A stretch of DNA of 64,000 nt from Amblyomma americanum (taxonomy: Eukaryota; Arthropoda; Arachnida; Ixodida; Ixodidae): NCBI RefSeq assembly GCF_052857255.1, contig NC_135497.1:183868204-183932203 (forward strand). The letters run 5' to 3'. The position numbers and the translations under genes were made by a program. Positions 8,037 to 36,000 of this stretch are shown in pieces. The stretch's first letter is position 1, and every line of letters starts with the position of its first letter. Below the pieces are notes generated by a model, which saw only the letters and a list, made by a program, of their open reading frames with translations, was not told where the DNA came from and did not search any database.

Positions 8037-8055
8037 CGTGTATTGTGAGTGCGAA

Positions 8056-9702
8056 ATGTCTTTGATGAAGCAGGCTGCTCTCACGCGCTATTACAGCGCA
8101 AAGAAACAGGGTTCTGCCTTGAAGGACAAAGAAACGGGACCGTTTGGAAACAGCATCGATGCTTTGAGAACGCCACAGACGGTCACTCAGGCTTTGAGAA
8201 GCGCCGCTTCAGGAACTGCCAGCTTGCCTCACAAAAGGAGACGTATCGGCGCCGCTGAGAAAACGCCTGTCACCTCGAAGCAAGGTGATAGTGTGCCAGC
8301 TTGGCGACCTCCTTCATCAGTTCGTAAACGCCTGCTTCTTCATGAAGAGACTGAAAAAGGTGACGTACCAAGCTTTGCTGAAGAGACCATTGCCACACTA
8401 CATACATCAGTGCTTGAAGAGACGGAAGAAAAGCATGTAACGTCTCCGTTGAAGCAAACGCCTGATGCTGTGCAACAGAAAGCTGTCCTCATGAAAAAGC
8501 TGGCGGCCTCCGGCAAGCTGCAGGAACTGCAAGCTAGGTTAAGGGCTATTGATGATGCGAAGACGGCCCTAAGCAGCGCACAGACAGTTAAGAAGGCTCA
8601 ATACAAAACCGTGGAGGACCCGGCGTACGTGCGGTTTCACCATCTCACGGAGCCACGGCCACCAAGCCTGACCCTACCATACAGTTACAGTGAACTGGCT
8701 GAAATATTCCGGTGCTGCGACACGATCGTTAGGTTATTGTTCAACAGGAAGGAAGTCTGCACATTTGACAAACTCAGGCGCTCTGTAGAGGAAATGTCAA
8801 AGAAAAGCTTCAGCAAAGCAAAGCTTGGCCAGATTACAGCAGTCTTCCCAGACGCCTACATTTTGAGCCAGGAGAAGGTGCTGCAGCGCGGAGTTGGAGA
8901 CGGTGGATACCAACTAGTTGTAACTCCCAAGTTGCCCCCTGAAGGTGGTAAGCTGCTCACTGCAGCCCACCTACTGCACCGGAGGAAGCACTTTCACTCC
9001 GTTTTGCTTTCTGCTGTTAAAGAACACCACGAGAAGTTTCTTCTGAGTTTGACTCCTCCAGTGAATATTTCTTCTGACATTTTAACTCGCTGGCACCCAA
9101 AGTTTCCTTTGGACAGTGTACCCGCCATATCTCCAGCAGCTCTGCCAGAATCGCCACTGAAGAGGTCATTCTCATCAGCACAGGATGTGTTGGACAAGGT
9201 CAAGGGAAGGCTCGGTGAGCGCATTGAAAAAGCACTGTTGGGCCTTAGTGCGGGCCAACAAGAAGCTGTTGTCACAGTGATGCCTTCACGGAATGACGAA
9301 GTGGCCAGCACGTGCCTGAAAGGGATCTCCGAGGACCTGCTTGCTCGTATTCGTGCAAGAGAATCATTCAAGCTTGTGAAAGAGATGACACTTCACCCAG
9401 AGGATGAAAAAGAGCAGGCAGAACTGGCAAAGCTTCCAGAGTTCATCAGAATCACTCGGTCCCATTTTCTTGCTGAGCAGAAGGCGGCTATACTGAAGGA
9501 TGACCTTGTGCAGAAAATCAGAGAAAGCTTTTCATCAATCCAGGCTGTGGCCGAAGTTGAGTCCCTCATCACCCTTGCGTCCAAAGTGTTTCCCGACTGG
9601 TTTAAAGTGCTAACCATAAGAAGGGGCACATTTGTTAAGATTGTGAGAGAGACTGATATCAATGGCCTTATTGCTCGTGTGACAAATAAGCTGAAGAAGT
9701 AA
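8056..9702 (+). CDS. CDT1: DNA replication factor CDT1, intact and intronless (548 aa)
   Basis: CDT1 loads the MCM2-7 helicase at origins with ORC and CDC6 and is restrained by geminin and by CRL4-Cdt2 degradation. Residues 6-17 are QAALTRYYSAKK, a PIP-box degron with a basic residue at the +4 position. Residues about 50-140 are a basic, disordered tail with HKRRRIG, which could be an NLS or cyclin-binding motif, and TP/SP sites. The geminin-binding winged helix spans about 205-350 (YSELAEIFRCCDTIVRLLFN, then FDKLRRSVEEM). The MCM-binding C-terminal winged helix spans about 440-548 (VFPDWFKVLTIRRGTFVKIV). Length matches animal CDT1. This start is chosen because the degron sits near the N-terminus; the frame stays open upstream to 7897, but that part includes the E2F site. 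No intron interrupts it, which is unusual beside the intron-rich gene downstream. The frame is intact, so it appears functional. Confidence 0.93.
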   Translation: MSLMKQAALTRYYSAKKQGSALKDKETGPFGNSIDALRTPQTVTQALRSAASGTASLPHKRRRIGAAEKTPVTSKQGDSVPAWRPPSSVRKRLLLHEETEKGDVPSFAEETIATLHTSVLEETEEKHVTSPLKQTPDAVQQKAVLMKKLAASGKLQELQARLRAIDDAKTALSSAQTVKKAQYKTVEDPAYVRFHHLTEPRPPSLTLPYSYSELAEIFRCCDTIVRLLFNRKEVCTFDKLRRSVEEMSKKSFSKAKLGQITAVFPDAYILSQEKVLQRGVGDGGYQLVVTPKLPPEGGKLLTAAHLLHRRKHFHSVLLSAVKEHHEKFLLSLTPPVNISSDILTRWHPKFPLDSVPAISPAALPESPLKRSFSSAQDVLDKVKGRLGERIEKALLGLSAGQQEAVVTVMPSRNDEVASTCLKGISEDLLARIRARESFKLVKEMTLHPEDEKEQAELAKLPEFIRITRSHFLAEQKAAILKDDLVQKIRESFSSIQAVAEVESLITLASKVFPDWFKVLTIRRGTFVKIVRETDINGLIARVTNKLKK

Positions 9703-12263: not shown

Positions 12264-12490
12264 AGCCGCCGTGGCGGCTCAATGGTTGTGGCGCTAGGCT
12301 GCTGACCCGAAAGACGCAGGTACGATCCCGGCCGCGGCGGTCGAATTTCGATGGAGGTGAAATTCTAGAGGCCCGTGTACTGTGTGATGTCAGTGCACGT
12401 TAAAGAACCCCAGGTAGTCGAAATTTCCGGAGCCCTTCACTACGGTGTCCTTCATAGCCTGAGTCGCTTTGGGACGTTAAACCTTCATAA
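12264..12490 (+). mobile_element. tRNA-derived SINE, family 1, copy 2
   Basis: A complete head (B box GGTACGATCCCGG) and body (TTAAAGAACCCCAGGTAGTC, GGGACGTTAAACC). The tail abuts ACGAACGGGACATAGAAGGACA, a fragment related to the hairpin sequence near 50.6 kb. Confidence 0.88.
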
Positions 12491-14282
12491 ATCGACAAGG
12501 TAAGTTGTTGGGCGAGTTGGTTTCGATATTCCATGACTACAGCGCAACGAACGGGACATAGAAGGACACAACACAGCGCTGTAAACATAAACATCAACCA
12601 GTTTGCATGACTTCATGGTTAAGCCCCTTGCTCCTGGTAGCTAGATATCCCAAGGAAGTTGGCAGGTGCAAGGGGATTAACCACAGATTAAGGGATTAAC
12701 CATGACATCATTACAATCAGTCAACCCCATTGGCTGAAGGGCCTCCTTTGAGGAGCATTTGTTGCTCGGATCTTGAGTTGGATGCCATCATAGTATGTCC
12801 GGTGCCAGGAAATGTTAGCTTTATTAAAGGTGGCAATGAATAACTGGGTTTCTGTTGGGGCATTTTTAACAGTAATTGGCCATTTGTGTTAGATGCTCCA
12901 CAAGACTTGCTTTCCAGCTAAAAGGTGTCATTTCCAGGTAAGACTCTCGCATTCTTTGGGGAAACGAGAACAGGGAGGTGTGCCCTTAATCAGCGTAAAC
13001 TCCGGACAGTCCCATCATTGTGTACCATTCATGCCCTTGTTGGTGCTTGCGCAGTTTCCTATATCAGGTATGTCTAGTTTTTGAGGTGGAAGACGTCAAC
13101 TATAATCTCTGGACTACTGAGAGATGGTTAGTAACTGCATACCAAGGCACATGAATTCAGTATCGCTCCATAGAAATCTGGTGTTTCCTGTATAGGATCA
13201 ATGTTTCTGAAATCAACAGAACATGATTATGTGCTTGTATCTTAATAGTTTTATTGGTTGCTTCCTTCGCTTTGCCTCTCGTAGCTACTGCTCCTACTAG
13301 AAAGAGTTCGCTCTTGAAAGTAATTTTCATTACTGAACAGGTCTTTCTTTCAGTATGGCCCCATTTGGTGATGAACTGTTACTATTTGTGACCCTAACAT
13401 GTCTACAAACCATGTTATGAATTTTAGTCAAAATACAGTTTCAATTTGACACATGAATGTCATTCATTCTATTCTTATAGTGGCACTTTAGTTGCCTCGT
13501 TTACGTAAAGTTGTGCATAATAAAGAGCGGTTGTTTGTTTTCAAAGTATACATAAAAATGAAATGTTATGTTACTAGCTCTGCATCAGGGATGCTTCTCT
13601 CTTTTGCTAAGCACTGCTTCTTGCATTGCAATTTGACTTTTGCCAAATTTACTTCACGCTAAAATATATGCAGCATAATGATTAATACAGATTTAGTCAA
13701 GTGTACGCTTGCTTCAGCATGCTCTCATATTTTGGTCACTTCAAAGCAGTTACGAGGTCACTTTAACACTGTTAAAACGATGGCACCCATCAATTTCATA
13801 ACAGTTTCTCCAACTTTCCGGTCGCACAAGGACTTAGCGACTGTATTCTCAGAATTGCGTGTAGCCTTACCTCACCCCACACCTTATGGTCAGCCCATTA
13901 CGCGAATATCACCTGAATATTAAAAAGTGACTTTTAAAGCACAGCTGCATGCACACTTGCAGCCCTAAAATCTTTATGAAACAATTTTCCAAACAGCGCA
14001 TTCGGTGTGGTCGCTATGTCTGCTGTGCGCATGCTTGCCGTGAGCTCCGCAAGGCATGGTACTGCCTTTATAGCGAAAGTACGCGCTATAATCAAAAGTG
14101 CAAGAGCAAGATGGCCGCCTATAGCGGAAAGATGCGTCCAGTTACTGGCAACACTGGCATAAACAAATGGAGGGTTTTGACGTTTTAACCAAAGCATTTG
14201 ATGTTCGCTTTTTACGCGTGTTTGCCCATCAAATGGGCATCCTTTGACTAGATTATGAAGTGCTGATAGGGGGGCCAGGCGG
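12491..14282. other. Intergenic; small foldback, otherwise unassigned
   Basis: The bases at 12615-12710 contain GGTTAAGCCCCTTGC and, inverted, GCAAGGGGATTAACC, so a small foldback is present. The following stretch with GGGCCTCCTTTGAGGAG recurs at about 37.43 kb. At 14108-14119 AAGATGGCCGCC resembles a YY1-type promoter motif; it is placed sensibly for the gene that starts downstream but is weak evidence alone. Confidence 0.4.
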
Positions 14283-15058: not shown

Positions 15059-15094
15059 CTATGGACACAAACTTGGTTCTGGGAATGCATCAAG
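15059..15094 (+). CDS. Exon 2: start codon exon of pogo-derived gene
   Basis: Acceptor TACTTGCAG at 15058, ATG at 15061, donor CAAG|GTAAGT at 15095. It encodes MDTNLVLGMHQ and ends in phase 1 (G), as the microexons require. The terminal GMHQ matches the same tetrapeptide in the 18058 unit, so this exon may share ancestry with the repeat units. Confidence 0.55.
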
Positions 15095-18000
15095 GTAAGT
15101 GCGTTTCTGTGGTGCTGTCTTGCGACGCGAAATGATGCGTGCCCCTGCAGTTTGGGCTGCTCGCTTTTGGCACTTTTTGGAAAGAGTTTGGGCATCCGCA
15201 TGCTGTCATTATATTTTTTAGCCATATTCCTGAAGGCTGGTCGCATCAAGTTGTGCCCGTTGCTAGTAGCAAGCAGTCATGCTGGAGCGGGAGGATGGCA
15301 GGTGGTCCAGATGCATGGCGTTATATTTGCGCTTATGAAAAAACCTGGAAGTTTTTCTTTTTTTTACCAAATTCATTAGGAATGTATAACGTTTCAATCG
15401 CGGTGCACGCTGCGGTGCGAACATTTGCATGTGCGTACGAATATAAAGGGCTTCTTTTCTCAGTGCTTTGCTGTTATGCTTCGTGCGTAATGCTGACTTG
15501 TTGTCTTGGCCGCGTGTCGTGATCTCTCAAGCTCTCGCTTTTCTACTCTTTTATCAGCGCTGCTCGTATTTTGAAGAAAAGGTGCTTTATTGTGTTCTTA
15601 TATGCAGGAATGAGCTGTAGCAGCATGGATGGTAGCGACGTGAGGGGTCTGCACCCATCTAGTGCTGCCAGCCACATGGGTAATATATGCGCGGCATTAC
15701 TGTTCTGCAGTGCTAAAACATAATAAATGTAAGCAGTCAACCTCTCTGGAATATTTATGGAGTGCCACCTGGTGTTGGTCAATTCACAAGCAATGCGATA
15801 CTTACCTATTGAAGCTCATAAAGTGACATACAAATCAGTTGCATAATGCAGGTAGTTTTTGTTATTTGCATTATGTTACTGAAAGCTCGACAGCCGGAAT
15901 GCATAGATTAAGTGTGCATGTTTGACTAATAAGTTGTTTGGCCAGGGGTTTCATTTCCAGCTGAAATCTGAAAACTCTTACGTACCGAGGTGATGGTGCA
16001 TGGGGAAGAACTCCTCGTTGTCCAAATAAACTTGAAGCCCATCTGTGGCTTGCTTTATTGGCCATAGTGCAGCTTTGTCACATAAGAACCAATTTAATCA
16101 CTAATGCATTGTTGTATAGGACCCTCTGTTATGATTTTTCTTTTAAAGCGTATGAGAACTGTTGCGTATGTGTTGCAGATTCATCATTGTTGATGAATTG
16201 AGAAGCAAGGTGTTCAAAGGTGGGACCTAAAATTGTTTAACTGTGGAGGCAAATGCATGGTGTTATTTGTGGCATAAATTGTTTTTATGTGTATGTACAA
16301 AAATTTGTCGATATATTGCCTGGCCTTTGTTGAGCCTGACTTATTTTTGCAGATGTTATAAAACGTGCTCCAAGTGGGCAGTGCAAAAAGTCCATGTGAT
16401 ACTTTATGCTCACTGTGGCCTTTTGTTTGAAACTACTCAGCCTAATTTTTAAATTTCTGCAGGGTGTTATAGTAATCATAGTTATGGCGCATTTAAGACA
16501 GGTTTATAGAAATGTTTGGTACCTGCTCTGATTCCTTCTTTAACATTACTCCTTCAATTTGGTTGCAGTGAGCAGCATGCCTTTTCTTTTTTCCTGTTTG
16601 TGATCTTCGTAATGTCTTGGTCTGCATAAATTTAATGAGCTTAGAGACGTTTGTGAGCAGCCAAATCAGCGATGGGAAGTGCATTTTTGTTTTGTTGCTT
16701 CTTGACTGGACTGAATGCTGGCTTGAGTGGTGCTTCCATCACTTTGAACTAGGTTGCTTGATAGTTTGGTTGTTTTGGTTTCTTACAATTGTCACCATGA
16801 GTTTTTTTTCTAGAATTTAGTTATCATTAAAGGGACTGCATGACCAAAATTTTGGGATTCTCACTGAACCTGGTGTACTTTAGGTGCGTTTCCATCGTTA
16901 GAGGTGAAGCATCAGCTAGGGTGATTCCTTTGATTTTATAGTTTAGTGCATTTTCTGTTTCAAATTTTTTTGTTTCAAATCAGTATGAAGGTAGTGCAGC
17001 GGATTTAATATGCAGATGTTTCTTGTCACCTGTGTGACAAACGTATCTGTTCTTGGCACTGAAAGTTGCATTAATCTTTGTGCCCACTGTGGTCCCTAAG
17101 GTTATCTTTGCATACATTACGTGTACACTCTCTCATCTGTGCACGTGTAGCAAGACGTCCTCTTCTTAGATTATGCGTGCTCTTGAAGCTTTTGTTGCTA
17201 CCTCCACTATCTGATTAGCATGTCATATGTGCGCTAACACCCCTGCTACGCGGTGCCGTATGGACTGAATCTCTTGTGCCACCATCTTTTTTGCATCTTT
17301 GGTGTGGCCATTGTTATCAAAAGTTGCTGTGCTGGCTTCCTTTTGTTGAGTGGAACAGGCATCCCAGTGGTTCATAAAAACTGATAAGCAGTTATCCATA
17401 CTCTCTATCTGCTGCTCTTCTGTGAATGGTGTCTGCCTCTGTGCTCTAGAGTTTCGATCTTTGGATGGCGTGACCTGGCTGTGCTGTTGCATGGCTTCAT
17501 TTTATCTTGTGCGAGGCGCTCGGTTAGAGTGACTTGGGTTGCCTGCCCCTTTATAGGAGGTGGATGTAGGTGAGGTTATGCTAAGCTCTTGCTTAACATC
17601 TGGTGATTCACTATTTTAGTTATAGCACCTGATCATTGCAAAAAAGGATAACTGTAGAGTTATAATTAAATAGCACAGAACTCTGTAGTTCATCTTTCTA
17701 AGCAATACAGCTCAGAAGAATGATTTTCTTGGAAAGATTTAAAACAGTGTGCTCATAGAACTGTGCCTTGGTGTCAAATCTGGCAAGGAGGTGCATTTTG
17801 TATTTATTCTTTTATGGCTCTTAGTTTTAATATATATACTTCTAATACAGGTCTTAAGAACCAGTTGAATGTTGTCTGTCAACTGTACGGCTGCTTTGAA
17901 GTGCTGTAGATATATTACTGGAAAAGGACTTGGTTTATTATAACTTATTGTCTACACTAATCATGTAAGTTTTGGAGTGTTGGACGTTTTTGAGGCAGCC

Positions 18001-21000
18001 GATCTGCATTTTTGCTGGATGATTGGGCTGCATCTTTGTTCTTTCTTTTTGGAACAGGCATGAGTTGCAGCAGCATGTCACCTGGGGATGTGAGAGGGAT
18101 GCACCAGACAAACCAGCACGCTAACCCGACAACTGCACTGGGTAAGTCTATGCTTTTCATGGCCCCCTCTTACTTCCAGTGCACATTTTCTGTTTGGTAA
18201 CTAAACGTTGTGCGTATTCTCGTATCTCCAGGCATTGGCTGCAGCCCCATGGGGAGTAGCGACATCAGAACACTTCATCCTTCCATTGACTCTGACCGAG
18301 GTAACTTTTCTTGATAAAAAATTTAGTGCAAGGATTCATTGCAGTTGTTTCTTTTTTTTGTGCGGCATTTCTTTCTAAACTGAAATCGACTTACTCACCC
18401 TGCATGTCTACATGGAATAGTAATTAATTTGTGCAGTGTCCACATGTGAACATGCATTTTAGGTTTGAGCAAAAGGCATTTGCAGAAAAAAATGCAGTCT
18501 CAAGAAAGAAATAAAGCTATCATATTACAAAAAATAAAAACTCAATGCATTTTTTAGTGACTTCTTGTTTTGTTCTTTTGTATCATATGTTATATCTTTT
18601 CTTATTTTTGCTGTACCAATTGTATGCCGTTATTCAAAATGCGCTTTGTCATCTGCCCTTCCTGCTTGGGCCACATGAGGTCTGCTGTAATATCTATTAA
18701 TAAAATAAATAATTATGCATGAAACGTATGCTTTTGCCAGTTTTGTGATCAGTTTTGTCAGCATATCAGGTTTTCCATACTCTTGCCCACTCAAGGACCA
18801 TGTTCTGACCATGATCTCTGTGAGGATTTTCTTGTAGTATGCTTTGCTTGGCTGAAGTAGTGAAAACAGTTGCAGCCAACCATTTTCAGCGAAAACCGTC
18901 AGCAGACAGCATTAAGGAAGTTGCTTCAAGGTCTCCGAGATTTTGATCAAACAGTGGTGTCCATGATCTTGGAAGTATGCCACTATCTGGAGGACGCCAT
19001 TTGCCGCTTTAACACATTAGATTAGCTGGATATACAGAGCTTCCAGTGCAGGATTTGCAACTGTGAACAGAAATACAACTGTATGTTTTAGTCAAAAAGG
19101 CAGCTGTTCTCAAACCGCATTTTTATGAAACTTAACCTCAAGTGGTGCGAACTTTACCCTGGGAAAAAAGAGGGTTGAACTTGTGTTAGCTAACAATACT
19201 TCCAGTGGTTGCTCTCTGAGGTTATGGTGCTTGACGTTTCTGAAGGGAGGGCAGGACATTTGCTAGCACCTTTAACATGACAGTTCTTTCCTGAAAATGC
19301 TCCCGTCTCGGTTGACCTTATATTAGAATCGTTTTGTCTTTAGAAAATTGTTACAGCAGTCAGCATTATTTAGCCTTCACTCTATTGCATTTCCCTCTCC
19401 AAAATTTTTTTGTGATGGCTATGAGCTACGCATTACCTCGTTTAAATTTTTTTGGCCACCGCTCTACATTGTAAAATTCGTTAATGGTTCATTCTCAGGG
19501 ATGGGAGGAAGCAGCCTTGCGGGGGCAGGTGTACGCTCTGTGCATTCAAGCTTGGACTGTGACCGAGGTGCTGTAAACATTTTTTATCCTTTCGTTTCTT
19601 TCTTCGTGTTATCACTAAAGCCTAAATTTAAGGTGGTGGTGTTGCATTCTAGGCCCTAAGTATATTAGTTTGAATGTAACAGCCGTTGAATACTATTTCT
19701 GGATTAATTAGGATGGGAAGCTGGATAAGTTTGGGTCAAGCTGAATAAGTGTGAATATCTTTCGTCATGCCCAGTGACTTTCTGGCTTTATTTTGTAGCA
19801 GATTTGGTTTGTGAATTGTAAACAGGCAATTTAGTATGCATGAACCCACATGTCAAGCCATTGTATGAAAACTGCTGATAGCCGTACAGTTTTTTTGCTG
19901 GTAAAATGCATCAAAGTGCATTATTGTGCTAAAGTGGTACCTTGTATGTATAAGAAAGAAATTTTTGATGATGCTGGCAGAAAAGTTTTTCAGGTGCATC
20001 TTCCACCTTCCACGATTTTAACTGCCTTCTCCCATGTGAAAATGGTGCCATTGCTTGCTTAAATCACTTCAAGTAGCAAGCAAGCTCTGTACCGCAATAC
20101 ATAAAGTAGGACATTGCCACCGTTATGGCTCTGGTTTAATCACTGATTTAAATGGATTCACTTCAAAAATTTCAGAATGCCACAAAGGTCTGAGTTATGC
20201 TGGCAGCTATGATTGGCGTCATCCATAAAGCTTCCAAACTGCTGAAAACATGTAGTTGGGTGTACGTGCTTCCAAGCCCAAATTGTGTGGAATATTTGAT
20301 GCAGTGATTATATTCGCCTATCTTCCTGTTCTTATGACTATCTGCTGTTTAGAAAACTCTAGAAGCTGCAGGCCGTGTGAGGTAAGCTTGTAGGAAACGC
20401 TTAGAATCAATTTTAGTGAAAACATTTCCAACTCTAAGGAGGCTCCCGTATTGATTCGCACTCTTTTATCCAAAATTTTAACCTGGGTTAAGATGTCAGA
20501 GCAGTCCTGTCTTTCAGCATTTCAGTAGTAAAGATAACAGACCATGGAAGAGCAGCTTAATTGCTCTTGCAGGCAGCCTAGTGGAAACTTAGGTACTGTT
20601 GTAGATTCATAGTTCAAAGTACCTGTGTAGTCAGTGCAAGGCACAGATCATGTAACTGCTGTCTGAAGAGCGAACATTTCTATTGTGGCTTGTCTTTCGA
20701 ATGGTCTCATTATAACATTAATCATACGTTAATCATTCCTACGCATTACCTCGTTTAAATTTTTTTGGCCACCGCTCTACATTGTAAAATTCGTTAATGG
20801 TTCATTCTCAGGGATGGGAGGAAGCAGGCTTGCGGGGGCAGGTGTAAACTTCGAAGTGAAGGTCATTTAACTCTGGAAATCCTCAGAACCTATGAAGTCG
20901 TGATATCTGTTTAAAGACAGTATTTCTAAGCATCCTGATATATATACTATTGTGCTCACTTTGACTGCAACGGTAGGAGTGAAAGAACTAAGCTCTCCAT

Positions 21001-24000
21001 TTTATAGTAAATTAATGCACTTTCTTAGAGAGCACCTAACTTGCACAAGTATTCAGAGTACTTTGTTCGCTGCATTGATGGCAAAATGCATACAATTTTT
21101 ATTGCGCTGAGCTTACATTACTTGCGAAACGGATCCGAGCGTGGTAGTTCATACAGTCACACACACATTTATGTACAGTCGAGGACCGAAAATTTGGCCT
21201 CCGATTGTTTGGACATGCTTGATTGCTCGGACATTTTTGCGGCGCCGCGGCATGGCTTATAAAGCCAATGTATAAGAGTGCCTAAAATTTCGGATGCACC
21301 GCAACTGACTGCTTGATTTTTCTCGCCGCCAATATCCAAGTCGCCATATAATGTGTACAGTGGAAGCTTGTTAATTCAGACTGCAAGAGAGGTCGAAAAC
21401 TTGGTCAAACAAAACGAAATTCAAGCCTAAAGGGAGCAGCTTAAATTGTGGGGTTGAAGTTCTCCATGAGTCAGCACATTGCGCCTACGTGGTTTGAAAT
21501 TAGTACTGTTCTTGGGTGTCGCGTGCAGCGAAAACTTGAACAGTAGTCGCAGTTCGTGGAACTCATCTGTGCCGAGTCCTTCGTCCTGATTACAAGAACA
21601 GGCAACAGTGAAGCGCGTGGGATGTGCACAGCTTCACGAAGACTGCAAGCACGGAAGAAAAAGAAGAAAATGGTGGTGCATTTCAAAGCGAAGACAGCGT
21701 ACCCATGGCCAAACGCACCGCAACTCTTACTTTTCTATCATAAAACAGTCAACAACGGGCGTTTCGATGACAGACAAGACACCTCTCACTGTATGCAAGC
21801 CAGCACAAGGTGCATATCGCCGGTTACGATGCTGACTTTGACTCTAATCGCTAGGCCTAATTATGAAGGCCAACACCAACAGAGCGCTCGCTCACTTCGG
21901 CCGTTCGTCGGTTCTTATCGTTTCACCATCTTCGCCTTCTCATTTCGGGTTCTTCTTACTGCGGGCGCAGCGCAGGCCTTGCAGCGGCAGGTTCGTTTTC
22001 ACGTCTAGACTTTGTCCCAACCTGGGCGTTTGTCGGCGGCATGCCAAAGGCAGCACAGCCATCATAGGCCGAGCTTGTGAAAGCGGGTGCCGCCCGTCAT
22101 CTGTATACACGACGCGTGGTGAGATTTAGTCATGAAGAGGTCACCATGTGCACAAAACTACCGACCTCTTCCTCTGCCATATTGGCAATAAGTTAAGTGA
22201 TTTTTGGTTAAATTTGATTTTTAAGACGTTTTTGCAGTCCCTAGAGAGTCCAAAAAATTGGTCATCAACTGTATTTGAATTATTCTGTGAAAAATGAAAA
22301 TGTGTCCTATGAAGTACAAGACATGGCTCTGTATTGTTCAGGACAGTTACTCGAGGTGAAGCAACAACAGAGTCGCTCGCATAACTCAGTACTCATCATA
22401 CCACTAAAATTACACATAACCAAAGGTTCACCGATAACAAAATATAAATGAGACATATTTCTGCAGGAACAACAATCGTAACATTTTCGTACTCTAAAAA
22501 AACAACAGTAAAACTCCGTTTATTCAGATTTCAAGGGACCAGAGATAATGTCCAAATTAATGGAATGTCGAATTATCAGGGGTCCGAAAGAAACTGTATA
22601 AAAAAGTGCTACACATGAACATAACCGTTGGTTGCTTGGTGCAAGAAATTTGTGTGGAAATCATTATTTTTAACAGTTTTGCTATATGATAATGTGTGTG
22701 CACACTGTTGGATGAACCAACATATGTTCTGGAGGACGCTGAGGATATCACAGCCTCTCCCCCACCCCCTGCACACACACACAAACAGACACACGCACAC
22801 GGGGGAAAAAAACTGTGTAATGCCAAACAATTACAGTCTCTGCAATAACACGAATAGCACGGTTCACGATGTGCACTCAACAAAAACAAAGAAGAAAATG
22901 GCGAAGGGCAGTACAAAAAAAGGCATCCCATCGTACATCCTCAACTCATAACCATAACTATGGGTACTGCGCATTTACATTTCGGTTTGGCACCAATGCC
23001 ACTCGTCTTACACTTCTGGCTGCCTGTCCGAATTAACTGAAGTGCAGCCATATTACTGTAAATTAATTAGTTTCACGCAATAGAATAATGCATACGTTTG
23101 ACAGGACTGGACGTGGTGTCTGAATTATTCATTTTTCCGAATTAACAGTGGTTCAGTTAATGAGGTTGTATTAGAAAAGACACGTTTAAACAGGTTCAAA
23201 GCAAATATGAAAAAAATTGTTTTTGGCAAGGCTTATGAAATTAATTGGTTAACATCAGTCATTTTGATGCAGTACTTGTGGTGTTCTAGATTTAATAACC
23301 AGGACTTTACTTTGGGTTGACCTTATTGAGGAACTGTAATGTTAATAATGCAGCTAAATAAAATTTTAGATTTATAGAGCATTTGACACCTCTTTTCATT
23401 AGTAAATATCTTAGAAAGTTTGAATGTCTGTGGACTTACTATTTTTGGCTTGTTCTCGGGATATTAAATTTAACTGGAAGAGTAGTGTCTGCTAACTTCT
23501 ACAGGTACAAATAAATCGTCGATAAAGTATACATCAGCAGCAAGCATCTTTGCAGTGTTATCTGAGCCATCTATGCACTTACCATGCGAAATATTAGATA
23601 TGATGCTATGTAATAGTCAATCCGTGGCAACGTACAAGAGCGATAAACAGTGACACCATACCTTAAAAATAACATGTTGCTGCGGCCTAAATAGGGCATT
23701 GAATTTAATCATGTACAAATGCATAGAAGTTATACAGAGATGATTAATTAGATATCGCAAAAACCAGCGTATAATACCATCCCGCATATAATACAAGGTG
23801 TAATGGGGTAGGAAAAACGGAAAAAAATTTTGGTCCGTGTATAATGTCAGGAATGCACACCAAAGGCATTTATTTGCAGTGCATTTCACGCATGACTCAG
23901 TGTCTCAATAGACACTCGCAAGACGAACCTAGCAAGCCGTCGTATGTGAGTGTTTAGGCTTTTCGTCAGCCTCTCATATTTTCTTTTCATTAATTTTTTT

Positions 24001-27000
24001 AGCTCCCCTCCATTCATTCCTCTTCTTTTCCTTCCATATAATTTCCTTTCTCCTCTACCGCTACTTCCCCCACAGCATTATTTTCTTTTTCTTTTCACTC
24101 TCTGAGCCTTTGCCTAAGTAGTTCCACCCCTCACAACATTCTCAATTACCTAGGAATTCTTCCTCAGGCAGACCCGTTCGGTCGACGCACTTGTGGCTGG
24201 CTTTGTGTCGCGTTGCACCACATGTGTAGGCGGGCGTTCGCCACAAATCTTTTTTATATTTTTCTACTTCTTTCTTCACCATATTTTCTTATCCCCTCCC
24301 CTTCACTTTGCTGTTTTGCTTTGCTTCTTGTTCTTGGGCACCCTTCTCATTGTGTTGTCTGCTCTTTTTCTCGTGCTTTGCTACTTGGAAATAGATGCCC
24401 AGCATAAAACCAGAGCTCATCATTGTCTCTATATCTTGTGTCTTGATGTTTCCGCACTGTTTATCCATCGCTATGTCACTCCAGCTAGCCCAAATCACCA
24501 CCACTTCGCTGTTACGATCACGAAAACTTTCTCATGGCTGCCCCGACTGCGCGCGTGCCAAACCCAGGCGGTTACAACTCTCCCAAACGCATTTGCTCCG
24601 GCGCTCACTAGCGGCACTGCCTGTTCACCGTGAGTGATGCCCCTGGGTTCCTGCACGGTGCTTATAGGCCTTATTCGTGTATAACCCACACCTGAGAAAA
24701 TTTGATGAAGAAAGTGCGGCTTTTACACGAGTATATACGGTAGAACAGGTTTGAAATCGCTGGACTTGTCTTCATGCTACCTGAACATGGTTTGAAAAGT
24801 AGGTAGAGAAAAAAAAGTTTTGTGAGAGCCCATAAAATTTGATTTTTTTTCTAATTGCTTTAGTAAAATGCTGTGGTCAGTTGTGTCGAAAGCGCTGGTT
24901 AAATCTAAAAATAATCCATAGACAATATTATTTCTATCTATACGCATGTTAATCCTATTGCAGAAATCTTCAGGAAGACCCACTGTTTTGCTGGACTCAC
25001 GCTGGAAGCCATATTGTGCAGTATTAACTAGAGGGAACCGATCATAGACTGGTACCATACTGATATAATTTTCTCAGTTAAAATGGTAATGGTTGACAGT
25101 ATTTGGATTGGTCAATGGTTTTTTTATCTGATTTTTTTCCCAGATTATGAAGGGGTCTTATAACAGATATCTTCATCCTTTTCAGTATTTTTCAGTATTT
25201 GTTTGTTTTTTTAATCCAGTGATCTGATTTTATTGTATCCTCATCGTTCATACATTTTATTATCGGTTCAAAGGCAGAGTTTGGAAACTTCGAACTGTTA
25301 TATGGCACCACAGAAGGCTGGGACTGTGCATTTAGTTCTTTTTCAGCTGCAGTGAATTGTTCTCTGAATGAGTTTGCTGTAGAACAATCGCTTTCACAGT
25401 TAAAGGTACAGGATACAGTAGAATCTTGGTAACGAATCTCATAGTGTCGATAAAATGATCAGTATCATCCGAAATTCGTGTCGTCTAAAGCAAACAAATC
25501 GTTGTGCATAAGCACGGGCAATGCATTTATGCAGATATCTTTTTGGCTGACAGGATTCATTTACGCCACGTGCCTCCATTCACTCACTACATCGGTGCTA
25601 TGCCGCCCAACCACCACTGCTCACTGCTCACGATGCGCACCACACGACTGGCTATCCTGTGCAGGGCCTGTGCGCCACTGCTCATTACTCGCAGTGCGTG
25701 CCACGCGACTGGTGATCCTGGCGATGGTGGTGTATGTGAAGCACTGCAGTTGTGGCTCTCACATTCATATCATCCGCTGTGGTGTGGGAGTGTGTTCGGA
25801 GCATCCAAATTTCTGCACGTTGTACACAATAGTATACTCTGGCCAGGCAGGACAAATTCACATCATCCCGAAATTCGTATCAACAGGGATCCTATTGAGA
25901 TTTTACTCCAGTGCAACATCCAAATTTCTGTGGTTTGGTTTCCTCATTAGATCATGCTGAAGTCCAGCATGCTTTTTTAATTTTTTCATATTACAGCAGC
26001 ATTTTACAATTTCAGCAGAAAAAAAAAAAGCTCCTTTCCAACAGTAAACCAGTAAACTGAAATGTGAGCCTGTCCTGATTTCTGCGGTACTGTTTCCAGG
26101 GGGGTGAAACCTCCTATACCTCCCAGCGGCCATTAATAGCAGACTGTAGCGCCAAATTCTCTTTCAGTAACATTCCCACTGGTTGGTGTACGTAGTGGGC
26201 TGAACCATTTAAGTGGGGGGCTGTTTGGGGCGGTCCAGAAAACTGCGCCTGGAGAAGGGGAGGGAATTGGTCAGTGTTTCCGGAGGTCGCATGCAGCACG
26301 TGTGGCATGCATGCCAGCGAGTTCGTTTTACCTGCACTTTTTTAGTGAGAAAAACACTACTTCACTAGCAAAGCTGAAACACCCGTGGTATGTGTGAAGC
26401 CTCAACCTTTGACAAAGCGCCAGCTGCTCCGTCAACGTGCGGAACAGGCACCCTCTCCACTGCCCGCGCGCAGCGAGGGGGGTGGAGGAGGTGCAGCCCC
26501 AAATGTGTACAACGGTACATATATACAGTGTAAAATGATGCACCACCACATGCCACCGGTCCTTGTGCTCAGTAACTATGTTTCAAAAGAAAATGGATGT
26601 GTAAAAGAAGAATAACTGGTGTTATTATTAAAATGTTATTTATGTGGAGAACCACGTAATCTCACCATTACCAGATTGAACATGGTGGCAATGCGAAGCA
26701 TGCTGCTGCCACACCTAGCCCAGCCAGTTATTCATAATTTCTTAAAGTTTTGATATCTGCATCACATTCGTTTGGCTTTGCACACATTGTGTATTGTTGT
26801 TGCTCAACATGATTCTGCCTGCGAGGCGAAGGAGCTACAATCCAATATTCAAGTTGCGTGCTGTTGAGTATGCGCTGAAGAATGGGAACTGGGCAGCAGG
26901 GAGACAGATCAACATGAGAGAAGAAAATTATCCATGGCTGGCATAAACTTTCAAGAGCGCTCCGGTCGATAAGGCCAACAAAATAGATAGACCATGGGAG

Positions 27001-30000
27001 AAGACACGCTGGCCAGAGCTCGAGAATCATCTCCACACGGCAGCTGTTGTAAGCATATGATTTTGTTCGACTCTGACGAACAGATCCTCAGCGCATTTAT
27101 ACAGTGCGTTTATACAGCGCTTACCGAATGAACAGGTGCGTCTTGTACAGCAGTGCGACTTGCATGCAACAATTTTTTTCAGAAAACTGCTGTGTGCGGG
27201 GGGTGGGGGGGGGGGTGGGGGGGTGGGGGGGGGGGTGGGGGGGGGGACTCATAGACCGGAAACTATGGTATGTGTACAGGCTGTGCTCGGGCTTTTAACA
27301 ACTTCATATAAAACGTAGCGTGATGAAGCTGGTGCTACCTTGGTTTGTTGTGCAAGGTGCTCCATGCAGTTGTAGCCACGACTCAAATGTTTGCTAGCCG
27401 CCGCGGTGGCTGAGTGGTTACGGTGCTCGGCTGCTGGTCCTAAAGACACGGGTTCGATCCCGGCCGCGGCGGTCGAATTTCGATGGAGGCGAAATTTTAG
27501 AGGCTCGTGTACTGTGCGATGTCAGTGCACGTTAAAGAACCCCAGGTGGTCGAAATTTCCGAAGACCTTCACTACAGTGTCCCTCGTAGCCTGAGTCGCT
27601 TGGGGACGTTAAACCCCCACAAAACCAATACCAAATCAAATGTTTGCTCCTGCATTAAGTGTTATTTCAAATTCTAACGTTTTTACTGTATTTTGGGAAA
27701 ATCTTGTAGTGTTATCAATTAAGGTAGGCTATTAAATGATACAGTCAGTTTTTACCTATCGACTGTGACTGAAACAAATCAGGTAGCAGTGGTGGAACTG
27801 CTGCGCCATTTGAACCAAACTGTGCCAATTAACAAATTCTGCTGCGCGCTGCTACAAAATCCAGTTCTTGCTTAATTCTGCACCTTGTCTGCATGAAGTT
27901 TCACTGAAGAACTCTGGCAAGAACAAAACCGGAACTGAATGTTTTGTCTCGGCACACTTTACCTGCCCACCATGCTGCTTCATGTCCGCCAGTGGACTCT
28001 CAGCATAGATGGGTGCTTCTCAGCTGTACTGTCTCTGTCAGATCTAAAAAGTCTAAACATACTACCCAACATATGTTAAGGGGAAACTTTCTGTGGCATT
28101 GCAATGCAATATTTAGCACCAGGTGTCAGCTTCTGGTGCTGTGTGGTCAGTTGACATGCTCGTGAGAAGCTGGCACTTCCAAAGTTGGTGGTTTGCACTT
28201 TTAGCTTTCATAACAGTGCCACAGAACATAGGGGTTCGCACATATTCGAAGTTTCGAGTAGGTTGTGAATGTTGATTTGCACTGCATTTATGCCATTCAA
28301 AGTATTCGAATGAATACACGAAAATCATGGTTTTTCTTGTTCCCTAAACTCTTGGTCAAACATTGTGGCATTTCCGAATGGCACTCACTGGTGTTTATAC
28401 ATGATACTGTGCAGGTCACACACACACACTTAGAAAGAAAAAGAGCGTAATGCTTTGGTCAAAGGTCTCGTGAGGAGGAACTCGTGTTTGCTAAGTAAAC
28501 ATTCACTGCGTAGCCCCTTTTATAGCTGGCCCACCAGGAAAAATCCTGCTCATTTGTGCATAAACAATGCTAGCTGCAGCACGCTTCATACCCGGAGGGT
28601 ATACTTACAAGGTGACAAGCTCTAAATGAGAAACAGGTGCTTTGAAAAATTAAAACCTCACCTGGTACATGGATGGCAAGTGATGTGCCTTGAAGCAGGC
28701 ACAGAAAATTAACAGTAGTTGTATGGGTGGCGGCAAAGACGGAGAAGATGGAAGAGTGGGGAGGGGATAGGGAAGAAACCTGTCGCCAGGCAGAAAGGAA
28801 AGAGAGAGGAGAGGGGCTGGGTTGTCGCTTCGGGAGTTGGAACTTTGGGCCATAGACAAGCTGCCATGAAGATGAACAGCACTCAGTGTTGTGAACAGCT
28901 GGATCTTTGTGCAGTCATAGAATTTACGGGATGCGGATTTGTGGACAAATATTAACTTCTGTGCGATCAGGCAAAGCAGACCAATGAAAGCTACAGAATT
29001 ATTAAGAGACGTTTGGAAGGTTCCAAAGATGTCTTTTTTTTCTTTATTGTAGAGCCTTTAATGGAACTTCTCATCAAGCGTACGTGGGCGAAATGCTGCA
29101 TGATTTTTCTTAGTGCTGAAGTACTAGGTGCATATCACTATACCTCATTGCACCACATTACTGTCACAAAATGTTTTGCTTCTATAAAAGTCCTGTGAAG
29201 TGCTCTATTTAAAGCTGTGAGATGCCTAATCATGCAGAGCACCGGCGGCATCAAATATATGTCTTGTATATTTTACTTACAGGGCTGAGTGGAAACAACA
29301 TATCTAACAATGCCAATATGCATACAACTATGGAAAGGGAAAAGGGTGAGTAAAAATTCTTTTTGTAATTTTCTTATGTGATAAGCCCAGGACATATTGC
29401 TAAACAATTAGGCATCTTAACCACAGCAAAGTTCAAAGAGTGCCAGGATTTCTTTGTTGTAACCGTTGTTTTGTTGGAGCCATAGATGAGCATCATGCAG
29501 ATGTATTATTTACCTACACTGCAGCCCCATTAGGGGCTATTGCACAAGTGGTGATAAAGAAAAGCATCAGCATCAACAAAAAGTTTCAGCGGCAAAATTG
29601 TTGCAACCATAAAAATGCAGCATGCAGAACTCACAGGAGTGGGAATACACAGGACATATGTGAAGTAGAATCTCTGAGTTATAATCACGGCTGCTATGAA
29701 TTAGCAAAATTCTCTAGCTGAAGTGCATTGTGTACAGTGTGCAGAATGTCGGATGTTCTGGATGCACTCCCTTGCCGCTAATGATGCGAACGTGGGAGCC
29801 GGCTGTAATTGGGCGAGGAGGCCGCACTGAGTGGTATTTTGGCATCAGCAGCATGGCAAGCTTTGACATGGTAAAGACATGTCCAAAAAATGAAGGTGGT
29901 ATGGAGGGTGGGATGGCGTTAGGATGCTTTTAGTTTTGTGTACCATTGTAACCATGCTGTTTGTGCATTGGCAACGCCGTGACCTGCACACACATTCGTG

Positions 30001-33000
30001 GGCAGACTAGAGGAATGATTCTTGCTGTTGCACCAGCCTGAGCAGCTATGTTCAGGCTTGTGCCTTGAACATATCACAAATGGTTACATATGTGTGCAAT
30101 TGTATGTTTAGCTTTGCAAGCATTATGAATGTTTGGAAAAATGGATAAGCTTAGTATTAGAGTGTCCACAATTCAATTCATCCATTAAAAAAAAAATTCA
30201 CGGGCAATCAGAACCTTTAATGGAACCTTTTTATTCTACACTAATTGATTCAGAGGGGAATGCGTTAACATGTGGGCTCCGATTTCATAAGCCTTTTGTG
30301 TTGACAAACAGAGTTCGTTCACACCAATGACAGTTTAAGTTCTTTGTTGTCCTTCTGCAGTGGTTCAAATCTCCCGCCATTCTGTGTGACTTGCTCCATG
30401 CTCATCAGATGGTGCTTCTTTCCCGCTGTTTCATGTGACTTGCTCTATGCTCGTTCGATGGCACTTCCTTGCGCCTTTTTTTGGAGAGGGTGTTTTTGGG
30501 GGAGGGTGGGGTTCAAGTGTTCATGTGCTCTTGCATTTCAAAGCGGTCGCACAAAACCGGCCACACTTTTGAACTTGGGCCCGCACATGCAAGTGCCCGT
30601 GTGCTCTTGCATTTAGACTTACACAAGCACGGATGAAAGTTGATGAACACGATACCCAAAGTACAGTTTAGCATGCAGTTTAGCATGCAGGGAGAAAGGC
30701 TGTGGTGATGGCTGAGTGGTCTAAGGCAGCGGCAAGCGAAGCTGATCTGTGGCACCGCCTTGGGTTCCAATCCCATTTGAGGTTATAAGTATGGTAAGTT
30801 CTTTAAATGCCAGTTCTGTCTATGAGGCCTCACGCGGACGACAGAGGGTTGGAATTCGCTTCAGTGGGGTTCTAATGCTAATGCATTAAAAATATGCATG
30901 AATGTGTTTCTTGTGCATCAACTTACAAATTTCATTAGTTTCTTGATGATATGAAATTTGGATGATGCAAATGTTTTTTGTGACCCAGTGAAATTTGTAT
31001 CAAGATTTTACTGTATCAAAAAATTTCATTGTCATCCAATAATTGTTCAAGTGGCGGTGAGTGAACGTAACCGGGTAAAGAGTTCCAGCATTCAGTGACT
31101 GATAGGAAAAAGTACTTGAATGTGTCTGTACATGCAGGTCTGTTAAAGGGGCTCTGAAAGGGGATATCAATAAAGGTGCGGTATTCCTGAGATGTTAAAG
31201 GATGGCGCTTCACGAATATCCTCCTGCAAAAATGTTTGTAATGCGTTACGTGGAAGCTGAGTTATCTGTAGTTAAAATTTGAATTTCAATGTCTTAGCAC
31301 CTTTCCTTCTCCTCTCGTCAGTTCTTGCATGACCAGAGATTGGCGCTCCTCTGCCGGCCCTAACGTGGGAATTCCTCAGGAGACAGAGCTTCCTGACCCA
31401 CCAGAGCGATGCTGCTAAGTGGCCGCGGCCATGGTAGCTGCGTAACACCTGAAAGAATCTGACCAATAGCCATCTCTTAACAGAACTACGCAGCAGCGTG
31501 CGGCGGAGGAGAGCGCGAGCATGAAAAAGTCACCGGAAAGTACTCACCAACTTTCACGTGCAATTGTGGGTTCTCTGCTGCATGTAGAAGTGTATTATTT
31601 GGCTCAAGTGTTCATGAAAAGAGAATCTAGTGATTGAGCGAGTTTATGTACTCGCCTCAGAAGGTGTTTCAGAGCCCATTTAATTACAGATCTGCAATGC
31701 GTTCTTTATTTCATAAACTATTGCAGCCTAGTATGGGCAACTACGACAAAAGCTAACATCACCAAACTACAGTTAATACAGAAAGAAAATCATCATACAG
31801 TCAGCTAATATAGATTACTTTTCATTCATGCATTCATACGTATTTTTAATGCATTAGCATTAGAACCGCACTGCAGTGAATTCGAGCTGTCCAGTCATCC
31901 GTGTGGGCCCTCATAGATGGAACTGGAATTTAAAAAGCTTGCCATACTTATAGCCTCAAATGGGATTCAAAACCAAGGCAGTGCAAAGAGATCAGCTTCC
32001 CCTGCCACTGCCTTAGACAACTCGGCCATCGCCACAGCCTTTCTCCCTGCAAACCGCATTTTAAAAACACAATATGGTTAGCCATTTACTTGCCAGTGTT
32101 TAAAAATGGGAACATGTGAAACGCTATTTTTATTTCTCTTCAAAATACACCCATGTTCGAAATGTTTATTTTCGTATGCTGTACAATGATTGTGGAAAAC
32201 ATCGCGGTTATAAGAGTTATTATCAGCTTATTTAAAGAATTTGAATTATTGCAAGCAAACGGACACATTTTAGGCTTTGTCACAGTGGAGTGTTTGTGGA
32301 ACCATTTCACAGGGAAAAACAACTTTGAAATGAACAAAACAGAACAAACTTCATGGCAAATAGTTGGTGATTTTGTGAAAGAAAAAAATAAACTGAAGCC
32401 TCTGTGTCTTTCACTGGCAGTGAGTTTTATGGAAATGTTTCATTTTTGGAACATTGGCATTTGGCAGTAACAGAATTCAAGGACAGGTGATATTCCACTC
32501 TTAGGGCCTCTCACATTACGCTGGCTGGAGTAAACAGTGCCCCAGTCTGTCTAACAAATATGTGAGAACGGATATGCAGGAGCTTTGGGGCGACGCCTTT
32601 GTGGGCAGTGCTCCAAGTGCATGCTGGGTATGTTCGAATCGCCGCATGTCTTCGGGCTCTTGCCTCCGGTCTATATGTGGCATCTACGAGGCGTTTCGAA
32701 GCACTTGGGATGTCTCACAACCACGCGTCCCAACCTATAACAGCAAAGATTGCACTAAGGGAAAGGCGGCGTGCATACACACACCATGTGGTCATGCACT
32801 GTCTTCCGCCCCTAGTGCCCACCCCACCTGAAGATGGCAAAGGCAGCACAACGTACAGAGCACGATGGTCCCATGATCACAGAATGGAGCCAAGCATGGG
32901 TCGTTCTTAGAGTCACCTGCATTATCTGATTGATGTAATTGATGTCCCATTTCATCTATAAAGTGTGTAGACACAGATATGGGGATATTTTTGGGCAGCG

Positions 33001-36000
33001 TGTTTGTTGGCAGTGTCTCAAGCTTATGCTCGTTATGTTGGTCCCACCGCGTGTCTTTGGGCTCTCGCCTCCCGGCTACATGCAACATCTGAGAGACATT
33101 TCGAAGCGTTTGGGGCATCTCATGGCCACGACTTGCACCCGATGACAACAAAAGATAGTGCTAAGCGAGAGATAGGGGCATGTAGGGTGTAGTCAGACGC
33201 CTTCCATACCCCTCCCCCAGCGTGCACCTCATTGAAGACGATATAGGCAATGCGAGGCATATGCAGAGGGTGGTCACGGGATCGTGGAATGAAGCTACAC
33301 GTCGGTCATTGTGGGACGTGTATATCATAGTTATGCTGTGAAAGCCATATCTCAAAAAATACTTTCCTGCCTACCATGTCTTCTGAAGCGCTGTATGCGT
33401 ACAGCTCACACGGTTACAGGAAAAATTATTCAAGCATAGTGGTTTTCTCTATAATCTGCTGTCTACAATTAGCAAAGGCGTTGTAGGCAGCCGTAAGGTT
33501 CTTAAAAAAAAATAGCGTAAAGAGAGGACGTCCCGTTTTTACGCTATGTTTTTGTTAAGAATGTATGACCAACTGTCCCTACAGTATAAGCCTGTTATAT
33601 GTAGTGGCACAGGCAGGGGCCTATTGGTTTACATTCTTTTTCTGGCTGCCCCACCATACTTTTTGTCCCTACAGTATACAGTGGAACCTCGATTATACGA
33701 CTTTGAGGGGACCACGCAAAACCGCCGTATAATCCGGGCGTCCTATAATCGAAAAACGAAGAATATCGGCAGTAGCATTCAGTCTTGTCCGAAAAACCGG
33801 TAGCAACCGCCTGAATAAGCGCGTGGTAAGAATCAACACCACTCTAAGAAAGGTAGATCAAATTATTTTAAAAATGTCAACACTCAAGCATTTGTTCGGA
33901 GGCACGGCAATCCCCGAACTGCGTGCCTGGCGCAACCACTCCACGAGGGCGTTCTCCAAGGCAGCAAACTTTCCGTCCTTCGCTCCCTTTCTCTTGAGGC
34001 CGAACTTGCTTGCGTTGAGCAGAATGGTGTCCTTCTTGGCAAGGATGGTTTTCAGAGACGACTCTGGAATATTGAGGTCGCGGGCGATGCTGGCTCTTGT
34101 AGCTCCCTTCCGTTTCTCGGCCTCTTCTATTATTCGAAGTTTTTCTCCCAGGGTCAGTGGCTTTCGACTCCGCGACATCGTGAGCCGCACTGATTGCAGC
34201 CAAAAATACGCCAAATTCCACGCAGACCAAGAAGGAGGGCACGTTATTGGAACACTCTGCAGCACAAAGAGAAGCAGTGGCCCACACCAGATAGAGCAAG
34301 TGGTGGCGCATTACAGTGCACGTGTCAGTTTTGTATCTGAAAATAAGACTTATCTGTTTCCCATTTAATTTTTTATATTTGTATACAACTAAAGCGGCGA
34401 TAAATGTCCTTGCAGAATACTTCTTTGACATCACAGATTTGATCCTGCTTTTTTTTTTTTTTCGTAGCTGAAATGCAGTAGTACAACATTCTTGCTGCCA
34501 GAGGGCTTGCTGTTAAAAAGAAAAAAAAAATGCAGGCATGGTGCGCGGCCGGCGCGGCTTTTCTTTATGCCACGGCTGCCGCTGTGGTTGACTGACGGGA
34601 GCCGCCTTTCCGAGTGCTTTTGCTTTCTTTTGGGGGAGATTATTTCGCATTCATTATCACCCGGCTACAATGTGCCTACAGGACAGCCTGCATCTGCTTA
34701 GAGCTTTTTTTTTTTCTCTGTACCAGAGCCGTCGTACGAAGCGGGGTCGGCTTAAAATTGCGTTATATAATCGATGATTTTGATACATTTTCTCTATGGG
34801 AGTTTTGCCGGGACCAAACCAATTCGTCGTAAAATGCGGGTCGTCGCGTAACCAGGGGGCCATATAATCGAGGTTCCACTATACTTTTTTAAGCTGTAAG
34901 GTTGTCTTCAGATAGCAAGAAATTCACACTGCACAGACCATAGAAGCTGTTTCTGACAACATTAGTGTTTTGTGTATGAGAAACGCCAATTCCAAAAAGG
35001 GTACATAGAAAAAACATGCTTAGTCATTTTAAACATGGCTACCTTTTTTTTTTCACAGTTAATTTAGAAAGCATATGTCAGTTGTCAATAGGAATTTTTG
35101 GCGTTGTAGCATTGCTTCATAGTGTGTCATATAAGAGGGCTCACCAGCTACAAGACAACTCAGATTTGAACTTTTTCTGTCGATAGATGGGAGCACTTAA
35201 GTACCACAAAAAGGAGGTAACTTTTGCTTCCCCTCCAGGTGTGTAAATTCTGCCACGACCACGACAGTATTAGTTCTTCCGCAAACAAAAAGTAGGGCCC
35301 AGAACTTTCTGTGTATATGCTGCCAAAGCTGGGAGATGGAAGCAGTGTTTGCTTTTCATTGTCTTTGCTTTTGTTGACCTTACTTTTCCTTAAAGCATCC
35401 GGCCGATGATTCTTTGAGAGAGAAGTAATGCTGCAAAACTGTTGTAGTGCTTTTTTGTTATAGTTCTAAACCGGTGATGCGCGGGTATATCACTTCATTA
35501 CCCGAGATGCGATCAGCGGTATCTGGAAGGATTGCAGCCAGGCACAACTATTTTGACAGTATTCTGGGTTGTTGTAGTTGCTTTTAGCACCTTATCTCGA
35601 AGGCTCCTCTTCGATGACCACCGAGCACATTTGTTGCTATCGGTGTCGGCGAATTCTTCAGTTTATTTATGGGCGATAGTCAATTCAATAACGACTTTGT
35701 TCCAAGTTAATGGGCTCGTCTGTTTTTTCATGGCATTGTCATCACCTCCTGACAGTATTAAACTAAATCATTACTGAAATGCTTAATTTCATGTCTCATC
35801 CCTTTGTGTCGTCGTTCTCTCGCCGTGTTTGTCTTTTTTAGCGCTGACCTGTTTCAAACGAAATCTCCTTCACTGCTTATAATTTCACAACGGAGCAAAT
35901 CAGAGTTGGGTAAAAGGGTGAAGTTCGTGGTTTGCAAAAGCACTGAGATCGTCTTGTTGCTATTCGTGGTGACTTTGAACGCAAATTTCGTCATTGCACA

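Follow-up and report, generated by a model that had tools for sequence, protein, structure and literature searches.

How a row of short, mutually similar exons came to stand in front of a former transposase, and what it does there, is the question raised by a locus of the tick Amblyomma americanum (NCBI RefSeq assembly GCF_052857255.1, contig NC_135497.1, positions 183,868,204 to 183,932,203 of the forward strand; this whole stretch of 64,000 nt is called the window, and coordinates below refer to it). A preliminary description, made from the letters alone, had reported a family of duplicated microexons forming the N-terminus of a domesticated pogo transposase gene and had suggested that one gene could produce many N-termini. 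According to the present analysis, the locus probably carries a catalytically dead tick host gene derived from a pogo transposase, in which an array of six duplicated exons encodes an N-terminal tail that would dock partner proteins and vary by splicing.

Exon Structure of the Gene

The five segments of the preliminary description (exons A to E, with starts at 15608, 18058, 18232, 19499 and 29283 and lengths of 72, 84, 69, 69 and 63 nt) were found exactly as reported. Each is flanked by an AG acceptor and a GT donor, has a length that is a multiple of three, opens with the last two bases of a Gly codon and ends with a single G, and all five are of phase 1-1. A sixth related phase 1-1 exon, E0, was identified at 15059–15094. 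It contains an in-frame ATG, and its opening codon would read Ala if the base preceding the exon were G. The chain E0-A-B-C-D-E reads in frame into 50762–51138 and then into 55087–56403, giving 694 amino acids with no stop codon. The resulting model, built from splice sites, frames and ortholog proteins, is a gene of eight exons spanning 41 kb:

15059–15094, + strand: exon E0, 36 nt, phase 1-1, ATG at 15061, MDTNLVLGMHQ, recurring slightly altered in Ixodes, Dermacentor and Ornithodoros
15608–15679, + strand: exon A, 72 nt, phase 1-1, GMSCSSMDGSDVRGLHPSSAASHM
18058–18141, + strand: exon B, 84 nt, phase 1-1, GMSCSSMSPGDVRGMHQTNQHANPTTAL
18232–18300, + strand: exon C, 69 nt, phase 1-1, GIGCSPMGSSDIRTLHPSIDSDR
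19499–19567, + strand: exon D, 69 nt, phase 1-1, GMGGSSLAGAGVRSVHSSLDCDR, weak donor
29283–29345, + strand: exon E, 63 nt, phase 1-1, GLSGNNISNNANMHTTMEREK
50762–51138, + strand: exon F, Ser/Gly/Asn-rich linker, then the CENP-B_N/HTH DNA-binding domain
55087–56403, + strand: exon G, HTH_Tnp_Tc5 and DDE_1 through the stop codon, catalytic triad lost

The unit exons comprise 391 of the 2,085 coding nt and encode about 130 amino acids, the front fifth of the protein; these make up most of the 211 residues preceding the DNA-binding domain. Exons B and C are separated by an intron of 90 nt, and an intron of 21 kb (29345 to 50762) divides the units from the transposase exons. Exons A and D have weak donors (both 3.5 on a simple home-made scale), and a filter demanding a Gly start, an acceptor score of 3 and a donor score of 4 was passed by three of the six exons and by 31 segments in all.

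A microexon is defined as an exon of less than 30 nt (PMC8627023; papers are given here and below by their PubMed Central (PMC) number). With 36, 72, 84, 69, 69 and 63 nt, the unit exons exceed this size, so that the term microexon was abandoned and small exons is the correct one. An unproven candidate at 20812–20841, described below, has 30 nt.

Orthologous Proteins in Hard and Soft Ticks

The predicted protein was compared with about 5.8 billion proteins in a search that scored 7,997 candidates, those sharing the most words with it, and in which relatives may be missed. Among the matches listed were eight clusters, namely seven with 74–92% identity over 68–99% of the predicted protein and one distant Globisporangium protein. 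Three of the seven are annotated as the Dermacentor albipictus TIGD3-like isoform X4 (P0001), the Ixodes scapularis TIGD3 isoform X3 (P0003) and the TIGD3-like isoform X2 of the soft tick Ornithodoros turicata. The other four (P0002, P0004, P0005 and P0007) were taken for tick proteins on the strength of their similarity. Since their source contigs are 2,081–5,260 bp long in comparison with the 41-kb gene found here, they were read as probable spliced transcripts.

In the alignment, E0, A, B, C, D, E and the linker of exon F followed one shared order, and six of the seven clusters carried unit sequence. E0, A, B, C and E were collinear in Ixodes, Dermacentor and Ornithodoros, and D was present in two of these three, P0001 lacking exactly this unit. 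D was thus missing from one of the six proteins spanning its position, while A, B or C was missing from none of the proteins that reach them. P0002 (712 amino acids) starts inside A and has B to E plus two insertions; P0005 starts in B and P0007 at the DNA-binding domain, and both may be truncated. The frames of the units are conserved in the other ticks and the orthologous proteins join the units to the sequence of the 50762 exon, as the preliminary description had expected. Its reading of the units as the N-terminal part of a domesticated gene of pogo-type transposase origin is borne out by the open frame of 694 amino acids, by these orthologs and by the lost catalytic triad described below.

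P0001 opens with the residues MVK ahead of the E0 peptide, which points to an upstream exon or another acceptor there; a short-peptide tblastn with this start located no place for it in the window.

Homology among the Small Exons

The window contains 4,954 phase 1-1 open AG..GT segments of 30–120 nt on both strands. A Gly start and a G end were present in 219 of them, and the removal of ten overlapping the + strand exons left 209 decoys. The similarity of A, B, C and D to the other units was equalled by none of the decoys. For E, 13 decoys did as well by best match and 8 by mean match; for E0, these counts were 3 and 17. In composition-preserving shuffles of the window sequences, the pairs A-B, A-C, B-C and C-D each reached p = 0.0002, followed by A-D (0.0015), E0-B (0.0020), E0-A (0.0022), B-D (0.0040), D-E (0.0070) and C-E (0.036); the other five of the 15 pairs lay at noise (p = 0.20–0.73). 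When the tick orthologs were included and alignment columns were shuffled, z values of 13.9 (A-B), 10.5 (A-C), 9.2 (C-D), 7.9 (B-C), 6.4 (D-E) and 5.8 (E0-A) were obtained, with B-E and C-E at about 4. The family resemblance claimed in the preliminary description therefore exceeds chance on window data for A to D, but E appears to join through D only with the ortholog data, as does E0 through A. Chance or composition as the source of the A–D similarity was rejected by residue shuffles, decoy segments and column shuffles; for E and E0, it was rejected by the column shuffles and the presence of these units in orthologs, not by the decoy test.

The own unit type was the best match for all 28 distinct unit sequences compared, hence the duplications are older than the divergence of hard from soft ticks. 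This divergence took place roughly 200 million years ago or more. Over this time, the units appear to have stayed distinct, held by selection. Between the A–D pairs, the proportion of differences was 0.75–0.96 at silent sites (pS) and 0.21–0.47 at replacement sites (pN) over 19 hand-aligned core codons, which suggests that silent sites are near saturation with the protein sequence preserved. Neighbouring exons are homologous, as in tandem exon duplication. No intron matches longer than 12 bp were detected within 400 bp on either side of exons A to E, the exons to which this comparison was confined; long matches between the flanks of B and C represent the same DNA, these exons being 90 bp apart. 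No convincing further unit was found within the window besides a partial copy of D. Amplification of the exons, as the preliminary description put it, is right in that they form a duplicated family; the array seems, however, to be ancient and nearly fixed across ticks, with the one fresh partial copy of D as the only sign of ongoing amplification.

Transposase-Derived Part of the Protein

Pfam profiles HTH_Tnp_Tc5 (53.0 bits) and DDE_1 (85.9 bits) matched the predicted protein over their cut-offs, and CENP-B_N scored 19.7 bits, slightly below its cut-off of 21.2; for P0006 and P0007, the latter domain is among the precomputed annotations. A profile search with the C-terminal part scored 7,998 candidates, again those sharing the most words, so that relatives may be missed. 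Among the matches listed were 17 clusters, the seven of ticks and ten more distant ones. The alignment of the catalytic triad took nine of these ten, P0017, a fragment, being omitted. The D/D/D triad was kept in seven of the nine outgroup proteins, with 30 residues between the second and the third D in P0009. In all seven tick proteins, all three catalytic positions were lost (A/E/L in five, S/E/M in P0006 and P0007). Such a degenerate triad is characteristic of TIGD3-type domesticated genes derived from pogoR.

In the tree, which was midpoint-rooted and in which the order of the nearest outgroups is unsettled, the tick clade had a support of 100/100 and a long stem (1.69), and the branches within it did not exceed 0.06. 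As the nearest outgroups include intact DD30D-like transposases, the gene is suggested to have been domesticated independently in ticks, vertebrate TIGD3 having been compared by description only. The possibility of a live transposon was rejected on account of the lost triad and the tree. The outgroup relatives start at or near the CENP-B domain, or later, and P0011 and P0017 have an unrelated-looking extension; the unit region was seen in none of the outgroup relatives examined.

An AlphaFold2 model of P0004 based on 16 sequences had a mean predicted local distance difference test (pLDDT) score of 60.8 and a predicted template modelling score (pTM) of 0.42, with 337 of 691 residues reaching a pLDDT of 70. 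Residues 1–221 had a pLDDT below 50, mostly about 30, and this N-terminus is predicted to be disordered; later parts of the model mostly fold. A Foldseek search with the model gave seven matches with E < 0.001, six Mos1 chains and CENP-B(1–129), with low TM-scores. Among sequences of solved structures, the C-terminal part matched only CENP-B, weakly (E = 0.007). In CENP-B, the CENP-B_N/HTH_Tc5 pair binds DNA, and the structure of CENP-B(1–129) with DNA is available (1hlv).

Exon D and Its Partial Copy

Among E0 and A–D, unit D diverges fastest. In the comparison with three hard-tick-like orthologs possessing D, it was identical at 12–15 of 23 residues, as against 22–24 of 24 for A, 27–28 of 28 for B and 21–22 of 23 for C. 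Identity to Ornithodoros was 8 of 23 for D versus 16 of 24, 19 of 28 and 17 of 23 for A, B and C, respectively. The core [LMV]-H proposed for all units in the preliminary description is present in D of A. americanum, but its His is replaced by Arg in all five other proteins possessing D.

The segment 19426–19533 recurs downstream as the most identical of 21 self-matches of the window:

20739–20846, + strand: partial copy of D, 108 bp, 107 of 108 positions identical to 19426–19533
20812–20841, + strand: candidate nascent exon within the copy, 30 nt, phase 1-1, GMGGSRLAGA

The copy holds the acceptor region and the first 35 nt of exon D. A donor-like end, CAG|GTGTAA, would delimit the 30-nt phase 1-1 exon, and a comparable donor-like site, CAG|GTGTAC, lies within D itself. 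For a random segment of 108 bp, the chance of including an acceptor together with 30 nt of exon sequence from the gene is about 0.7%, which, for a single event spotted post hoc, is suggestive. The copy may be a nascent unit, as a candidate only.

In I. scapularis P0003 and in P0005, unit D begins with two extra residues (EC), consistent with an exon D that is 6 nt longer there or with the use of another acceptor.

Alternative Use of Exons and the P0002 Cassettes

The insertions of P0002 are SRAQLEIVDLKPVIE between D and E and VDGVDTKEGLFR between E and F, with junction codons that fit phase 1-1. The query GVDGVDTKEGLFR, representing the E–F cassette, was compared with 2,883 phase 1-1 open AG..GT segments of 27–60 nt on both strands. 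By global alignment, the top segment scored 30 and the best independent one 22:

45799–45840, + strand: candidate cassette, 42 nt, phase 1-1, GGDGGESKEPLFLR, resembling the E–F cassette of P0002

This segment lies on the correct strand and in the correct intron; its acceptor is fair (3.38), its donor weak (2.50). By tblastn alone, it was not significant (E = 0.19), and it is considered a candidate cassette only, unrelated to units A–E as far as seen. A second look-alike at 36504 was dismissed, AG being absent there. The D–E cassette was not found in the window, where the best of 2,611 candidates scored 15 and lay outside the D–E intron. Of the many N-termini envisaged in the preliminary description, variation is suggested only for D, absent from one of six proteins, and for the two extra cassettes of P0002, but A, B and C were always present where reached.

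Proposed Function and Competing Explanations

The favoured explanation starts from what was observed, namely the exon anatomy, the open frame, the homology of the units, their conservation across ticks and the loss of the triad. The host gene would descend from a DD30D-type transposase of the pogo superfamily, which lost its catalytic residues and retained the two-part CENP-B-like DNA-binding region. The six small phase 1-1 exons would have arisen by exon duplication before hard and soft ticks separated and would then have been kept distinct by selection. The protein would bind DNA through its CENP-B_N/HTH_Tc5 pair, and in the disordered tail several similar short motifs (around D-[VI]-R-x-[LMV]-H) would each offer a partner a place to dock. 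As the units are frame-neutral, splicing could change the number of docking sites with the DNA-binding part untouched, most plausibly at unit D. Several points weigh against this explanation. The docking role of the tail and the putative partner are purely what we infer. The sequences speak only weakly for splicing: the signs of it are thin, the absence of D may reflect exon loss in Dermacentor, and none of the proteins reaching A–C skips them. Judged from the window alone, neither E nor E0 can be told apart from decoys, and even with orthologs the pairs A-E (z = 2.5), E0-C (1.0) and E0-D (0.4) stayed weak, to which B-D (2.8) and E0-E (2.1) can be added.

For the splicing part, a constitutive tail explains the data nearly as well. 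Old duplicated exons would always all be included, lengthening a disordered spacer, and phase symmetry would be a footprint of duplication; we give this slightly less than even credence. It agrees with the nearly fixed number and order of units from Ixodes and Dermacentor to Ornithodoros, with A–C in every protein reaching them and with phase 1-1 symmetry being expected from any in-frame exon duplication. It is harder to reconcile with annotations naming isoforms X2, X3 and X4 (in three different species), with P0001 lacking exactly D and P0002 having two added cassettes, one of them with a look-alike here, and with the specific motif, not composition alone, that the units retained in the shuffle controls. 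The array could also predate the transposase, its exons coming from an older host gene downstream of which a pogo element inserted and became fused by splicing. The 21-kb intron between units and transposase exons and the lack of a unit region in the outgroup relatives examined would suit such a capture, which we regard as possible though less likely than not. Against it, a search with residues 1–131 found the tick gene alone (six of 315 candidates, E up to 1), this search being word-limited, so that very different lengths or short diverged motifs would be missed. An array still growing, in which the number of homologous frame-neutral exons included sets partner recruitment and the copy of D is a seventh unit at birth, seems unlikely. 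That the segments are unrelated intronic look-alikes and not exons is barely credible; the window does hold 4,954 open phase 1-1 segments and E and E0 resemble decoys there, but all six peptides occur in orthologous proteins and no decoy of 209 reaches A–D. Practically negligible is the chance of a live Tigger/pogo transposon, for which the HTH_Tnp_Tc5 and DDE_1 domains would speak, against the triad lost in seven of seven tick proteins, the eight exons and the single clade with very short branches.

If the favoured explanation of a dead pogo-derived gene with a docking tail holds, the locus represents an apparently independent transposase domestication common to hard and soft ticks. It would also be a clear example of a disordered tail built by duplicated exons on a former transposase, with a build suited to several versions of one DNA-binding protein. 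The DNA-binding region, nearly frozen between hard and soft ticks, implies an important, undescribed role. With old units and a fresh partial copy at one locus, it would give direct access to how frame-neutral exons are born.

Neighbourhood of the Gene

Other features of the window were the following:

7897–9702, + strand: open reading frame for a DNA replication licensing factor (CDT1 and CDT1_C domains), on the strand of E0 and about 5.4 kb upstream of it
33858–34265, − strand: part of another pogo/Tigger element (CENP-B_N, E = 8.7e-13) in the E–F intron
43184–44576, + strand: remnants of the long interspersed nuclear element (LINE) type in the E–F intron, with reverse transcriptase at 43184–43588 and RNase H at 44154–44576
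509–756, 12264–12491, 27396–27646, 51978–52161 and 54603–54843, − strand: dispersed repeat of about 170–250 bp, 76–88% identical, with the size of a short interspersed nuclear element
53192–54176, + strand: diverged repeat blocks, about 71% identical, in the F–G intron

No long transposase frame was seen beside the 33858–34265 fragment in 30000–34500, the stretch viewed.

Comparison with Known Systems

No description of this tick gene was found in the titles and abstract beginnings of open-licence PMC papers among the matches listed, and the analysis thus highlights a conserved tick gene undescribed in them. The sole paper among these matches to combine ticks with the phrase 'tigger transposable element-derived protein' was PMC10449191, with a TIGD6-like annotation. 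The order CENP-B_N, HTH_Tnp_Tc5, DDE_1 is shared with the vertebrate pogoR-derived domesticated genes TIGD3, TIGD4, TIGD6 and CENP-B. The triad is not recognisable in TIGD3, TIGD4 and CENPB (PMC7386202) and reads DA30P in mammalian TIGD3 (PMC7325037). Both papers cover vertebrate TIGD domestications, and in their main texts the words tick, Ixodes, arachnid and Chelicerata are absent. TIGD3 is dated to lobe-finned fish and later (PMC7386202), which argues against orthology of the tick and vertebrate genes. Vertebrate TIGD3 has about 470 amino acids in total (PMC7386202), whereas the tick protein has 211 residues ahead of the DNA-binding domain.

Rows of short symmetric exons thought to yield splice variants are also known from the micro-exon genes of schistosomes, where exons of 6–36 bp (or 3–81 bp) make up most of a secreted or membrane-anchored protein (PMC5825161, PMC10526429). 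In contrast, the tick exons have 36–84 nt, are homologous to one another and account for no more than the front fifth of a protein that probably binds DNA; with 391 of 2,085 coding nt in units and DNA-binding domains in the product, the gene does not belong to this class. Host–transposase fusion genes, in which transposase domains are spliced to upstream exons of other origin (Cosby et al. 2021, as cited in PMC8290160), are a possible parallel, but the upstream part in ticks is a repeat array free of Pfam domains, with relatives found only in ticks in the word-limited search. Exon duplication within a gene is likewise the basis of tandem duplicated exons (PMC9741552), and, unlike mutually exclusive substitute exons, the tick units occur together in one protein.

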